Assembly: GCA_902596675.1 (NCBI GenBank)
Contig: CACJUO010000008.1
Coordinates: 1 to 57,327, forward strand
Source of the DNA: an uncultured Pelagibacteraceae bacterium
GTDB taxonomy: Bacteria; Pseudomonadota; Alphaproteobacteria; Pelagibacterales; Pelagibacteraceae
Length of the DNA stretch: 57,327 nt
Reading direction: 5' to 3'
Positions 11,665-56,880 of the stretch are shown one piece after another. The notes under the pieces were generated by a model, which saw only the letters and a list, made by a program, of their open reading frames with translations, did no database searches and had not been told where the DNA came from. Position 1 is the stretch's first letter. Each line of letters starts with the position of its first letter. The position numbers and the translations under genes are program-made.

Positions 11665-12734
11665 TTAGTAGGTCTTAATCTTTGTCTTAATTCATCAATT
11701 GGTTTTAAAGAATTTCCAGATTTGTAATGCCAAAAAGTCCATCCGTTACAACTTTCTGCACCTATAATCTTTGCTGCAACTTTATGGATTGAACCCTCTG
11801 ATTGTTGATATTTTATACTTCCATCCACCATAATTTTAGCATTTACTTTTTTCTTTTGATCATAAATTTCTGTTCCAGGTTTAATCAAACCCATTTCAAC
11901 TAATGAACCAAAAGGAATTCTTGGTTTTGATCTATTATTTTGAAGTGTATCTAGATATTCATCTTTTATAACATCTGTATTGTCTAATCTTATTCTTGCA
12001 GCATCAAAATAATTTTTTTCTTTTTCAATTCCAAAATACTTTCTACCTAATTTTTTAGAAACAATAGCCGTGGTACCTGATCCTAAAAATGGATCTAAAA
12101 TAAAATCATTTTTATTTGATGAGGCTAATATTATTCTATGGAGTAACGCTTCTGGTTTTTGAGTAGAGTGGACTTTTTTTCCATTATTTTTTAATCTTTC
12201 TTTGCCATTACAGATTGGAAGGTTCCATGTAGATCTCATTTGGAGGTCATCATTTAAGCATTTCAATGATTGATAATTGAAAGTGTATTTCGACCCCTCA
12301 CTTTTTGATGCCCAAATAAGTGTTTCATGTGCGTTAGTAAACCTTGTTCCCCTAAAATTTGGCATTGGATTATTTTTATTCCAAATTACATCGTTTAGTA
12401 TCCAAAAACCTAAATCTTGGATTGTAGTACCCACTCTAAAAATATTGTGATAACTACCTATTACCCAAATTGATCCATTTTTTTTTAAAATTCTCTTACA
12501 TTCTTTTAACCAATCAAAAGTAAATTCATCATAACTTTTAAAATTTTCAAATTGATCCCATTTATCGTCTACAGCATCTACTCTAGATGTATCTGGTCTA
12601 ATCAATTCTTTTTTTAATTGAAGGTTGTATGGTGGATCAGCAAAAATAAGGTCAAAAGTTTCATCAGGAATTTTTTTTAATTCCTTTAAACTATCTCCAT
12701 TAATAATTTTGTTTTTCAATGATTGATTGCTCAT
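11661..12734 (-). CDS. ccrM: CcrM-type adenine-N6 DNA methyltransferase (GANTC)
   Basis: Orphan beta-class methyltransferase of 357 residues. The catalytic motif DPPYNL (FADPPYNLQ) is near residue 33 and the SAM-binding motif DPFLGSGTTA near residue 215, the beta-class order. A C-terminal domain (about residues 265-357, ending GWTFWHYKSG...) matches the extra domain of Caulobacter CcrM. No restriction partner is nearby. CcrM in alphaproteobacteria methylates GANTC in a cell-cycle-dependent way; GANTC specificity here is inferred from close family resemblance and from GANTC sites in its own promoter. Confidence 0.93.
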   Translation of the reverse strand: MSNQSLKNKIINGDSLKELKKIPDETFDLIFADPPYNLQLKKELIRPDTSRVDAVDDKWDQFENFKSYDEFTFDWLKECKRILKKNGSIWVIGSYHNIFRVGTTIQDLGFWILNDVIWNKNNPMPNFRGTRFTNAHETLIWASKSEGSKYTFNYQSLKCLNDDLQMRSTWNLPICNGKERLKNNGKKVHSTQKPEALLHRIILASSNKNDFILDPFLGSGTTAIVSKKLGRKYFGIEKEKNYFDAARIRLDNTDVIKDEYLDTLQNNRSKPRIPFGSLVEMGLIKPGTEIYDQKKKVNAKIMVDGSIKYQQSEGSIHKVAAKIIGAESCNGWTFWHYKSGNSLKPIDELRQRLRPTN

Positions 12735-12747
12735 TTTTTATTTATCA

Positions 12748-12776
12748 ATTAGACTCCAGTGTAGAGTCTTCGTCAA
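12748..12776 (-). promoter_or_regulatory. Predicted ccrM promoter with embedded GANTC sites
   Basis: On the minus strand a TTGACG -35 (12776-12771) is followed after exactly 17 bases by TCTAAT (12753-12748). The expected start of transcription is only about 7 bases before the ccrM ATG, giving an almost leaderless message. Two GANTC sites lie inside the core promoter: 12764-12768 in the spacer, and 12752-12756, which partly overlaps the -10. They form a perfect 6-bp inverted repeat (12751-12756 and 12764-12769). Methylation of these adenines could therefore feed back on ccrM expression. Confidence 0.6.
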
Positions 12777-12809
12777 CCTGAGATTGAAATATTTTGAGTC
12801 TACTTGTTA

Positions 12810-52206: not shown

Positions 52207-54048
52207 GTGGAACGTATAATTACAAAATCATTTGCGAGATTAATGGGCAGAGGTGTCCATAGGGGCTTCATAACTCATGAAGAATTAAATAAATCTCTAG
52301 GAAAAAGAAATCTGTCAAATGAAAATTTAGAGCAAGCCTTTATACATATTCTTGATGAAAAAATAATATTAGTCGAAAAAAAAGCTGACTTTAAAGTTTT
52401 AAGAAAAAAAGATAACGGCACCAAAGAAGAAGGCAAATCAATTGAAAAAAGTGACGATCCAATTCGAATGTATCTTCGAGAGATGGGAGGAGTGGAGCTT
52501 CTTTCTAGAGAAGGCGAAATAGCAATAGCCAAAAGAATTGAGGCTGGTAAAGACGTTATGTTAAATGCTCTCTCGCAAAGTCCAATAACAGCTCAACAGT
52601 TTTTTGAATGGAATAATAAACTTCAAAATGATGAAATTTTAGTCAGAGAAATTATTGATATTGATACTAATTATATGGAGGATGAGGATACTGGTCAGAG
52701 TGCAAAACAAAAAAAATCAGATGATGGAAATGAAAATCAGGTTAATGAAGAGGGTAATTCCAACAACAATGATGATGATGAGTTTAACCCAACTCTTGCT
52801 GCAATGGAAACTGAGATAAAGCCAAAGGTATTGAAAACAATTTATAATCTAACTAAAGATTACAACAAGCTAATAAAATATCAAAACGAAAAATTAGAAT
52901 GTACTTTAAATTTAAAATCTTTTTCTCCATCCAAAGAAAAAAATTATAAGAAAATAGTTGATGATATAATAGAAAACATAAAAACTCTTCAGTTGTCACC
53001 TTCAGTATTAGAGGAATTGGTACAAAAACATTATGTAGAAAATCGTAAAATAGTATCGTTAGAAGGAAATTTATTGAGACTTGCAATAAATGAAAAGATT
53101 TCAAGAGACGAATTTATAAAATTTTATGTTGGTAATGAGATAAACCCAAAACTGAAAAGCTTTTTAGATACCAATGAAGTTTGGAAAAAATTTTTTCAAA
53201 AACATAAAACAGAGTTTAAAAATATTAGGGACAGACTAATCGAAATAAGTAATAAGCTTGGAATTTCAGTCACAGAATTCAAATTAATGGTGAGTAGAAT
53301 TCAAAAAGGTGAGAAAGAATCTAGAATTGCCAAAAAAGAGATGGTGGAAGCTAACTTAAGACTCGTTATATCAATTGCAAAAAAGTACACCAACAGAGGA
53401 TTACAATTTTTAGATCTTATTCAAGAGGGAAATATAGGTTTAATGAAAGCAGTTGATAAATTTGAGTACAGAAGAGGTTATAAATTTTCGACATACGCGA
53501 CTTGGTGGATAAGGCAAGCAATTACAAGATCAATCGCAGATCAAGCTAGAACTATAAGAATACCAGTTCACATGATTGAGACAATTAATAAAATTGTTAG
53601 AACTCAAAGGTTGATACTTAGTGAATTTGGAAGAGAAGCGACACCAGAAGAGCTTGCAAAAAAATTGAGAATGCCTTTAGAAAAAGTCAGAAAAGTCTTA
53701 AAAATTTCTAAAGAACCCGTATCACTTGAAAAACCAGTTGGTGACGAGGAGGATAGTAGTTTAGGTGATTTTATAGAGGACACCAAGGCATTAGCACCTC
53801 TTGAGCAAGCTATAAAATCAAATTTGAGTGAAGCTACTACCAAAATACTATCAACTCTTACCCCCAGAGAAGAGCGTGTTTTAAGGATGAGGTTCGGAGT
53901 GGGTATGAACACGGATCATACATTGGAAGAAGTTGGGTTGCAGTTTTCTGTTACGAGAGAGAGAATACGTCAAATTGAGGCTAAAGCATTAAGAAAATTG
54001 AAACATCCTAGTAGATCTAAACAACTTAAAAGTTTCTTAGAGAGTTAA
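52207..54048 (+). CDS. rpoD: RNA polymerase sigma70 factor
   Basis: 613-residue primary sigma factor. An N-terminal region 1.1-like domain, region 1.2 ([21 protein letters not shown]), an acidic Asn/Asp linker, region 2 ([13 protein letters not shown]...[35 protein letters not shown]) and regions 3-4 (ERVLRMRFG...[18 protein letters not shown]) are in order. The start is a GTG at 52207. It is last in yqeY-dnaG-rpoD and is followed 3 bases later by tRNA-Val. Confidence 0.97.
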
Positions 54049-54050
54049 TA

Positions 54051-54125
54051 GGGCCGTTAGCTCAATAGTAGAGTACTGCATTGACATTGCAGGGGTAGTT
54101 GGAGCGTAACCAACACGGCCCACCA
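54051..54125 (+). tRNA. tRNA-Val (GAC) with atypical D- and T-loops
   Basis: All four stems pair: acceptor GGGCCGT/ACGGCCC, D-stem GCTC/GAGT (one G-T), anticodon CTGCA/TGCAG with loop TTGACAT (anticodon GAC) and T-stem GTTGG/CCAAC; CCA is encoded. The T-loop is AGCGTAA instead of TTCRANT, the D-loop is AATAGTA, lacking the GG pair, and the last variable-loop base is A rather than C. The combination is unusual; see findings. Confidence 0.85.
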
Positions 54126-54143
54126 TAAATTAATTATCTATAA

Positions 54144-54170
54144 TTGATAACTATGTAAAAATGATATAAT
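54144..54170 (+). promoter_or_regulatory. Predicted promoter of tRNA-Met
   Basis: A perfect TATAAT (54165-54170) lies 17 bases before the tRNA, with TTGATA (54144-54149) upstream; the 15-base spacer is shorter than optimal. It lies in the 62-base gap between the two tRNAs. Confidence 0.45.
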
Positions 54171-54187
54171 TAAATGTCAGTTTATTT

Positions 54188-54264
54188 GGGCCTGTAGCTC
54201 AGTTGGTTAGAGCAGTACACTCATAATGTATTGGTCCCAGGTTCGAGTCCTGGCGGGCCCACCA
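54188..54264 (+). tRNA. tRNA with CAT anticodon (tRNA-Met, or Ile2)
   Basis: Canonical cloverleaf: acceptor GGGCCTG/CGGGCCC (one T-G), D-loop with GG, anticodon stem GTACA/TGTAT with loop CTCATAA, T-loop TTCGAGT and encoded CCA. It is not an initiator because it has a standard 1-72 pair and lacks the three-GC anticodon stem. Elongator Met and lysidine-type Ile2 share the CAT anticodon; I cannot decide from this sequence alone. The mlaC stop lies 1 base beyond the CCA. Confidence 0.93.
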
Positions 54265-54265
54265 A

Positions 54266-54856
54266 CTATTTAATAATAAATTCTTCCAAAGATTTAAAAA
54301 GATAATTTATATCTTCCTCATTATTTTGTAATATAGATTTAAATTCTTCTTTTTGAGTTCTTGCTAAGCTCAATCCCTCAACTATAAGATCTCTTATTAA
54401 AGGTCTATCAGGATTTTTTGTATATATTCTCCAATCTATTTTTATCTCAGGATTTTTAGATGTTTTTTCTAAAATAGTACTTACAATTGTATATTTTTCA
54501 TTAATTTTTTTTTCTGATACAATGCTTATTTTTGGATCTGAGTAATCTACTAATCTACTTGAAAAGCTTTTCAAAAAATAACTTTTAAAGAGTTTCTTAT
54601 ATTTAATTTTTTGATTCTCATTTAAATTTTTACGGTATTTTCCTAATGTATACATTCCAATGCCATCAATATCTACGCTGGTTTCTGCAATATTATTTAA
54701 TTTAATTATTTTAGATTCAACTGGATCAGAGCTTGATAAAATGACTGAAGCTTCATTAACTATTTCACTAATTAATTTACTAGGTTCTTTAGCAAATGAT
54801 ATATTATTTAAAAGTAAAATAAGAAAAAAAAGAGAAATTATTTTGAGTTTACTCAT
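54266..54856 (-). CDS. mlaC: MlaC-like phospholipid shuttle protein
   Basis: 196-residue periplasmic protein of the MlaC/Ttg2D family that carries phospholipid between outer and inner membranes. A signal peptide covers about residues 1-22 (LFFLILLLNNISFA/K). The middle has the FKSYFLKSFSSRLVDY segment and the C-terminal WRIYTKNPDRPLIRDLIVEGLSLARTQKEEF that is family-typical. It follows mlaA in the same direction. The inner-membrane MlaDEF genes are not in this window. Confidence 0.88.
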   Translation of the reverse strand: MSKLKIISLFFLILLLNNISFAKEPSKLISEIVNEASVILSSSDPVESKIIKLNNIAETSVDIDGIGMYTLGKYRKNLNENQKIKYKKLFKSYFLKSFSSRLVDYSDPKISIVSEKKINEKYTIVSTILEKTSKNPEIKIDWRIYTKNPDRPLIRDLIVEGLSLARTQKEEFKSILQNNEEDINYLFKSLEEFIIK

Positions 54857-56493: not shown

Positions 56494-56853
56494 GGTCGCC
56501 AGATAAAAGACTTATCGCTTTAATTTATTAAAGAGGAAAGTCCGGGCTCTACAAAGACACAGTGCCAGTTAACTACTGGCGGGGGCAACCCTAGGGATAG
56601 TGCCACAGAAAATAAACCGCCTTATCAAGGCAAGGGTGAAAAGGTGTGGTAAGAGCACACCGGCTAGGTTGGTAACAGCTAGCGCATGGAAAACCCCACT
56701 GGGAGCAAGACTGAGTAGAGATGACACTGTTAGAAATAACAAAAAGCAGTCTTTGGCTAGTCATCTGGGTTAGTTGCTTGAGCCTTAAAGTGATTTAAGG
56801 CCTAGAGAAATGATAAGTTTAAATGACAGAACCCGGCTTATATTTTATCTGGC
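56494..56853 (+). ncRNA. rnpB: RNase P RNA (class A)
   Basis: Catalytic RNA of RNase P. The ends pair perfectly: GCCAGATAAAA at 56498-56508 with TTTTATCTGGC at 56843-56853. The conserved core elements GAGGAAAGTCCGGGCTC (P4 5' half, about 56532-56548), the AGAGCACACCGG segment, and ACAGAACCCGGCTTA (P4 3' half, about 56826-56840) are present. It lies between the amidase gene and mraZ. Exact ends are approximate. Confidence 0.93.
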
Positions 56854-56880
56854 ACAAATATATTCTTACAATCCAAGCTC

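Follow-up and report, generated by a model that had tools for sequence, protein, structure and literature searches.

A conserved SAR11 tRNA-Val(GAC) with A18, G55 and exchanged nucleotides 54 and 58 shares its elbow module with phage tRNAs

The window analyzed here, a stretch of 57,327 nucleotides from an uncultured Pelagibacteraceae bacterium, encodes a complete tRNA-Val(GAC) in which nucleotides of the tRNA elbow have changed together: A18 and G55 stand in place of G18 and U55, A54 and U58 have exchanged places, and G19 and C56 are kept. The tRNA is conserved within its genus, and phages carry the identical module. We conclude, with a probability of roughly 0.7, that it is a functional valine elongator tRNA whose elbow would be built from G19-C56, A18-G55 and A54-U58, would be independent of Psi55 and would have been permitted by the loss of TruB, the Psi55 synthase. 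A search of titles and abstracts in the open-licence literature returned no report of an A18/G55 tRNA; an earlier report of TruB-less SAR11 bacteria is possible.

Sequence and predicted fold of the tRNA-Val(GAC) gene

ARAGORN named the gene tRNA-Val(gac) and placed its ends exactly at 54051 and 54125 on the plus strand; the Rfam tRNA model (RF00005) matched positions 54051 to 54122 with 53.6 bits, the gathering score being 29, and marked no broken pairs. The gene reads GGGCCGT TA GCTC AATAGTA GAGT A CTGCA TTGACAT TGCAG GGGTA GTTGG AGCGTAA CCAAC ACGGCCC A CCA, a class I cloverleaf with stems of 7, 4, 5 and 5 bp, anticodon and T loops of 7 nt and a 3' CCA encoded at 54123 to 54125. All 21 stem pairs are standard, pair 10-25 being G-U. 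The anticodon GAC (54083 to 54085), which reads GUC and GUU, lies in a normal loop, TTGACAT (54081 to 54087), and A35, C36 and A73, which we take to be the main valine identity elements, are kept.

The D-loop, AATAGTA (54064 to 54070; A14 A15 U16 A18 G19 U20 A21), has A18 (54067) in place of G18, followed by G19 (54068). The T-loop, AGCGTAA (54103 to 54109), comprises A54 (54103), G55 (54104), C56 (54105), G57 (54106), U58 (54107), A59 and A60 (54109). With A18 and G55 the tRNA lacks the G18-U/Psi55 pair of a canonical TPsiC-type elbow, and with A54 and U58 it lacks the reverse-Hoogsteen U54-A58 pair; G19 and C56 are both present and could form the canonical 19-56 pair. The variable region, GGGTA (54093 to 54097), ends in A48 (54097), which stands opposite A15 (54065), giving A/A at 15/48. 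Having A18 with G55 and G19 with C56, the tRNA belongs with the A18/G55 elbow group of phages described below, and it shows neither the unpaired stems nor the loops varying among relatives that mark a degenerate or pseudo-tRNA.

A sequence-only reading of the window had described a complete tRNA-Val(GAC) with intact stems, an encoded CCA, a normal anticodon loop and non-canonical D- and T-loops, and ARAGORN, Rfam and the sequence bear this out; the 54/58 swap, G55, the retained C56 and G19 and the A-A at 15-48 that it listed are all present. Its account of a D-loop without G18 was right in that G18 is gone, but position 18 is still occupied: an A has taken the place of the G in a loop of 7 nt. 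A60, in place of the usual pyrimidine, is a change beyond those it listed. It had also asked about a second tRNA-Val(GAC): no further tRNA-Val, GAC or UAC, was found in the window's genome, an assembly that is 74% complete and gave 23 tRNA matches.

The gene begins 2 nt after the stop codon (54046 to 54048) of rpoD, which encodes a sigma-70 family primary sigma factor (52207 to 54048, plus strand, with a provisional predicted start; NCBIfam NF004208, RpoD, 1.5e-234). The next gene, tRNA(CAT), lies at 54188 to 54264 on the plus strand (ARAGORN, Rfam) and has a canonical elbow (G18 G19 and TTCGA); rpoD and then tRNA(CAT) are found in 20 of the 21 loci from sister genera and family f2. A simple scan detected no promoter-like or terminator-like site within 53900 to 54300, and because no promoter-like site was seen and the spacing is 2 nt, the tRNA is probably carried on the rpoD transcript. 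The other two tRNAs in the window scored 65.3 and 72.7 bits with Rfam, against 53.6 bits for tRNA-Val(GAC); genes of this kind may score too low in tRNA searches geared to TTCRA. Elsewhere in the window, there is an Rfam match to the bablM sRNA (12731 to 12800, minus strand, 53.3 bits) and an RNase P RNA of class A (56499 to 56856, 296 bits), the latter about 2.4 kb downstream of tRNA-Val(GAC).

Covariation of elbow positions in viral tRNAs

Covariation was analyzed in 1471 unique viral tRNAs, after removal of those that matched any search pattern and those with T-loops of other than 7 nt. A18 occurred with G55 in 109 of them and with U55 in 6, and G18 with U55 in 1214, with C55 in 29 and with G55 in 5; the other 108 D-loops either had AG in a longer loop (27 G55, 15 U55) or were of further kinds (11 G55, 54 U55, 1 C55), and they follow the association less closely. 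For the four main 18/55 cells, Fisher's p is about 1e-145, with phages taken as independent and kinship uncorrected. The contigs had been fetched for unusual tRNAs, which inflates the share of A18 but not the 18-55 association itself.

Among the 313 tRNAs with a 7-nt D-loop, positions 18 and 55 had the highest mutual information of the 49 D-loop/T-loop position pairs (0.475 bits; 0.010 after shuffling), followed by 19-56 (0.198 bits; 0.005 after shuffling), and every other such pair gave at most 0.082 bits. Positions 19 and 56 were A-U in 7 of these tRNAs, U-A in 1 and C-G in 1. Within the T-loop, 54-58 ranked first (0.145), followed by 54-60 (0.135); the 54-58 combinations in the viral set were U-A (1397), A-U (33), A-A (21), C-A (10), G-G (4) and others (6), and A60 accompanied 22 of the 33 A-U cases. 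The separate covariation of 18-55 and of 54-58 argues for two separate switches, both of which are thrown in the Pelagibacter tRNA. It also supports the suggestion, made from the window sequence alone, of co-adapted tertiary contacts, since each pair covaries in viral tRNAs of many isotypes.

Two other structural ideas were set aside. An antiparallel Y20-G55 pair as a new contact was rejected because 20-55 carried 0.027 bits against 0.015 after shuffling and A20 occurs with G55, and a GNRNA-type pentaloop in the T-loop was dropped by inspection because the copy from genus g6 has U59 (AGCGTTA).

Phage tRNAs with A18 and G55

A pattern requiring A18 with AGCGTN, and allowing any anticodon, matched 17 viral contigs, and the corresponding pattern with G18 matched none; one GG/AGCGT phage tRNA (L539) was later parsed by ARAGORN. 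The 17 contigs carry tRNAs for Val(GAC), Val(TAC), Asn, Met(CAT) and Lys, with differing acceptor stems. The view in the sequence-only reading that there was no similar tRNA proved wrong, the module in phages being identical.

When nucleotide 55 was left free and the pattern specified nothing beyond A18, G19, the Y and A after them, and C56, at least 120 viral loci matched. The 115 loci obtained from this pattern alone yielded 80 unique matches, of which 2 were dropped and 78 kept at least 18 of 21 stem pairs; among these 78 well-paired tRNAs from the matches listed, 75 had G55, 2 had U55 and 1 had C55. Their 54-58 combinations were U-A, G-G, C-A or C-C and never A-U, which makes the full Pelagibacter signature with A54-U58 the rarer phage form. 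Over all viral loci, A18/G55 tRNAs comprised 185 unique sequences from 80 contigs and, as named by ARAGORN, all 20 isotypes; 152 of the 185 keep U54-A58 (TGCRA).

In several contig stretches, G55 was present in nearly every tRNA: 18/18 in L488, 14/15 in L474, 13/14 in L574, 13/16 in L534 and 10/12 in L580. By the D-loop rule, A18 was assigned in 12, 10, 10, 9 and 6 of these, respectively, the rest having longer or odd D-loops. These counts suggest that certain phages may have switched almost all of their tRNAs to a G55 elbow.

Well-known phages were rejected as carriers: in 11 regions from GenBank phage records, none of 120 parsed tRNAs had G55 (114 GG/U55, 5 other/U55, 1 AG/U55), and the group is known from contigs, with no isolate among the records fetched. 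A blastn comparison of the window tRNA with the collection of phage records gave no match at an E value of 0.01. Apparent counterexamples with A..AG and TTCRA were also discarded, because a one-base slip of the pattern accounts for them: GG is present in each of the 83 matches read (from 80 of 120 loci).

Three side observations concern phage tRNAs. L580 and L532 have TGAGA or TGAAA T-loops, in which C56 is changed to A, together with odd D-loops such as AAAATACA, AATCACA and GAGAATCA; a U19-A56 pair may possibly accompany G55 in them. Four contigs (L308, L310, L315 and L312) have tRNAs with a CTA anticodon, called Pyl by ARAGORN, near an A18 tRNA-Val, and these are probably amber suppressors. 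The isolate phages Breeniome (L602), Astolliot (L597) and Stenotrophomonas phage DLP_6 (L598) have ATCGTNN T-loops in which 54 and 58 are swapped and G18 and U55 are kept.

Conservation and history in Pelagibacterales

The sequence-only reading had named canonical loops in all related strains as one finding that would speak against it; such loops are not general among the relatives, although most sister-genus genomes read and a few of the genus itself have them. In the order-wide sample, a D-loop pattern search found the A18 D-loop in 70 of 76 same-genus genomes, the window's genome included, with 2 canonical (G118, G240) and 4 giving no GAC match (G141, G253, G303, G322); counts per genus are our own tally of result rows. 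The G18 pattern occurred in 4 of 151 genomes of the genus in the family-wide sample (G118, G240, G503 and G037, by our own row count). Among Pelagibacterales loci not chosen by T-loop, AGCGT was present in 51/51 with an A18 tRNA-Val(GAC) and TTCRA in 91/91 others, with no mixed case; these are counts of loci, with repeats, and leave out 120 stretches selected by T-loop. The usual T-loop of the A18 tRNA is AGCGTAA, with AGCGTTA in G265 (g6). The other parsed Pelagibacterales tRNAs have G18/U55 in 88/88 unique sequences, and of 337 genomes across the class, the A18-plus-AGCGTN form was found in three, each a member of the window's genus.

Among the 18 genomes from other genera of the family, tRNA-Val(GAC) was canonical in 12 and of the A18 form in G265 and G291, and no GAC tRNA was found in G229, G302, G301 and G311; in the sister-genus loci read, the canonical gene did not adjoin rpoD. 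Matches in family f2 came from 40 of 53 genomes and had a G18 D-loop. The A18 tRNA of G291 (g5; L234/L611) is identical to a variant from the window's genus and adjoins tRNA(CAT), the genes flanking it on its contig have few matches among the fetched loci, and it may have been transferred or misbinned.

A tree of rpoD (91 rows, a few genomes appearing twice) placed the canonical G503 as the deepest branch of the genus and the canonical G037 at the next fork, where its order relative to an A18 pair and the rest of the genus is left open; this is a tree of one gene with some weak forks. Of the A18 rows, it includes 8 chosen variants and 55 taken at random; one duplicate locus and rpoD fragments shorter than 480 aa were removed. 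The canonical G118 and G240 are nested inside the A18 group, which implies that the A18 state can be reversed or exchanged. The A18 label needs four changes on the tree, one of them owed to G308, in which the A18 tRNA lies away from rpoD. A single gain of A18 in the genus with two later returns or allele exchanges fits this pattern. The canonical tRNA of G037, which is also downstream of rpoD, differs from that of the window only in the D-loop, nucleotide 48 and the T-arm, and this restriction points to change in place.

The same comparison bears on the possibility that the tRNA or its loops came from phages, the module having been selected, initially in phages and later in the bacterium, to escape an enzyme that reads the elbow, such as a T-loop nuclease, a surveillance factor or a modification enzyme. 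The contigs with G55 in almost every tRNA (L488, L474 and L574) would suit this history, and the A18 tRNA of G265 agrees with phage contig L318 at 52 of 57 positions (8 to 64), against 49 of 57 with the window tRNA. However, the 5' strands of the G265 and L318 acceptor stems agree at 1 of 7 positions, and given the limited difference between G037 and the window tRNA, no import of a whole gene is needed there. Ten phage open reading frames beside A18/G55 tRNAs included an HNH endonuclease, a methyltransferase, a helicase, a NUDIX protein, a radical SAM protein and a weak glycosyltransferase-like match, some giving no hit, and no elbow-reading nuclease was identified among them. We regard a phage origin as unlikely.

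Relaxed selection, also raised by the sequence-only reading, would make the gene an early pseudogene, with tRNA-Val(UAC) reading the whole GUN box and the GAC loops left to drift. The four same-genus genomes without a GAC match might suggest that the tRNA is dispensable: a covariance-model search found no GAC tRNA among the loci read, and each of the four has a tRNA-Val(UAC). This makes for a weak test, because three of them (G253, G303 and G322) also lack rpoD in the assembly, which weakens the argument from dispensability; there, the absence may be an assembly gap. G141 (L204) is the sole one of the four with an rpoD locus but no tRNA-Val(GAC), as relaxed selection would allow; in other genera, G301, G311, G229 and G302 likewise gave no GAC tRNA. 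By eye, the place of the tRNA downstream of rpoD in G141 is taken by a glycosyltransferase-like reading frame. Among the loci read, no tRNA-Val(UAC) was seen in any genome with the A18 form.

Signs of decay are lacking in the tRNA itself. The identical 75-mer is present in 151 fetched loci (loci rather than genomes, some overlapping and the window included), and the Pelagibacterales A18 tRNAs comprise seven variants of 75 nt and one of 76 nt with the D-loop AATAGTTA. Across the seven, 147/147 stem cells are paired and 9/9 varying pairs have changed on both sides; the search pattern itself dictates the loop core, the final two pairs of the T-stem and some of the D-stem, so those positions are uninformative. 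The AGCGT core was likewise constant in all 51 A18 loci that had not been picked by that loop, and drift would not be expected to arrive at the phages' loop solution. The tRNA-Val(GAC) is neither an error nor a relic and is under selection. With two-sided stem changes throughout and the A18 D-loop in 70 of 76 genomes, relaxed selection is not supported; it is already largely refuted, and we give it very little credence.

Non-canonical elbows occur in tRNAs with roles outside translation, and an elbow changed so as to evade EF-Tu or the ribosome would be in keeping with such a role, for example as an aminoacyl donor or a sensor. Against this, no same-genus genome of the order-wide sample has a second tRNA-Val(GAC) by the D-loop pattern, an extra match in G317 having been rejected on inspection as not tRNA-like. 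A18/G55 occurs across all 20 phage isotypes, which is easier to reconcile with translation than with a single special role. The ribosome reads the G19-C56 face (PMC4810234), and this pair is kept; a role outside translation is very improbable. A sequencing or assembly artefact is refuted by the identical sequence in 151 loci of many assemblies, including the single-contig genomes G204, G205, G213 and G012.

TruB and other T-loop modification enzymes

The TruB family (PF01509) had no match in any of the 76 same-genus genomes or of the 11 from g6 and g7 (0/87 together), whereas it was present in 7/7 genomes of g3 to g5, 42 of 53 genomes of family f2 and 14/14 control genomes; it was found in all seven other genera. 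Among the 98 genomes that gave no match, the survey identified 20 by name, of which 7 are single-contig, and we take its sample to be the order-wide D-loop sample from their equal size, 10 genera and handles. The stricter TruB model, TIGR00431, agreed in 9 genomes. TrmA-type PF05958 was found in 0/9 genomes against 12/14 controls and TrmFO above its cut-off in 0/9 against 7/14. Thus, T-loops of all tRNAs in g1, g6 and g7 cells may be unmodified at positions 54 and 55.

The substrate motif of TruB is given in PMC7912444 as 53-GUUYRANYC-61; the window tRNA reads G53 AGCGUAA C61 and departs from it. In the rpoD tree, g1, g6 and g7 form a clade with support of 96/77, and in the simple reading, TruB would have been lost once at its base, with the A18 tRNA arising later inside the clade. 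Loss of TruB is not sufficient, because g6 and g7 lack the enzyme and mostly have a canonical tRNA-Val(GAC), and because G18/U55 is universal among the other Pelagibacterales tRNAs parsed. Nor is it strictly necessary, because G291 has both TruB and an A18 tRNA, with the reservation about its origin given above.

Discussion

In the canonical elbow, as passages of PMC4810234 and PMC7912444 describe it, G18 contacts Psi55, G19 pairs with C56 and nucleotide 57 lies between. In our preferred reading, that of a functional elongator with an alternative elbow, RNase P would cut the tRNA-Val(GAC) from the rpoD transcript, as the 2-nt spacing and the want of a promoter-like site suggest; ValRS would charge it, given that A35, C36 and A73 are retained, and the charged tRNA would read GUC and GUU. 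In its elbow, G19-C56 would be retained, A18-G55 would replace G18-Psi55, with the donor side of the contact moving from position 18 to position 55, and A54-U58, together with A60, would close the T-loop instead of the reverse-Hoogsteen U54-A58 pair. Because neither U54 nor U55 is needed, such an elbow would be independent of the enzymes that make T54 and Psi55. Loss of TruB in the clade would have removed one constraint that holds U55, and the swap would then have been fixed in a single tRNA. The sequence, its conservation, the compensated stem changes, the covariation of 18-55, 19-56 and 54-58 and the lack of TruB matches are observations; from these we infer the pair geometry, the expression, charging and decoding of the tRNA, and any part that TruB loss played as a cause.

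A broader proposal, to which we give slightly better than even odds, is that the elbow has a second solution that does without modification, namely A18-G55 either alone or together with A54-U58. Some phages would have converted nearly whole tRNA sets to it, and the SAR11 lineage would have fixed it in one tRNA after loss of TruB; the 18-55 pair would then be one of at least two interchangeable states. If this is true, the pair is no fixed feature of tRNAs. What is novel would be a tRNA with an alternative set of tertiary pairs, A54 alone being already known from eukaryotic initiators.

SAR11 bacteria are among the most abundant in the ocean. A conserved natural replacement in a SAR11 genus and in phage tRNA sets, combined with no detected TruB, makes the purpose of the 18-55 pair and of Psi55 testable. 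The A18/G55 sequences also offer ready-made tRNAs that may not depend on, or may hide from, enzymes that read the elbow.

Compared with known tRNAs, the closest to that of the window are the canonical tRNA-Val(GAC) of sister genera and of four same-genus genomes, which share its anticodon loop, A73, CCA and stem lengths and, in G118, G240, G503 and G037, also its acceptor stem and its position downstream of rpoD; they have G18 G19 with TTCRA, whereas the window tRNA has A18 G19 with AGCGT. The sister-genus loci read lie away from rpoD and mostly have a GTTC/GAAC-type D-stem. The IMG/VR phage tRNAs of the A18/G55 type with AGCGTNA share both A..AG..A and AGCGTNA and include Val, Asn, Met, Lys, Pro, Ile, His, Glu, Gly and others; A18/G55 phage tRNAs as a whole differ from the window tRNA in acceptor stem and mostly in isotype, and most keep U54-A58. 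We know of no name for this group. Phage tRNAs with ATCGTNA T-loops, such as those of Mycobacterium phage Breeniome (tRNA-Gly and -Asp) and Pseudomonas phage Astolliot (tRNA-Met and -Val), share the A54-U58 swap, mostly with A60, but unlike the window tRNA, they retain G18 together with U55.

The Steinberg group has reportedly described suppressor tRNAs, obtained by selection, in which the D- and T-loops are altered. Eukaryotic initiator tRNA has a purine-purine A54-A58 pair, according to PMC7912444. It shares A54 with the window tRNA, which differs by U58, G55 and A18. A60 is likewise found in the eukaryotic initiator. tRNAPyl and mitochondrial type II tRNAs also depart from G18/Psi55, as described in PMC7609411, but they lose G19-C56 or the whole D-T contact, whereas the window tRNA keeps G19 and C56 in a standard cloverleaf. 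G18-Psi55 and U54-A58 are treated as tRNA constants, and Psi55 is called universally conserved, in passages of PMC4810234 and PMC7912444; the identical swap in a SAR11 tRNA and in phage tRNAs suggests, at the level of sequence, that a second naturally occurring design of the tRNA elbow exists.
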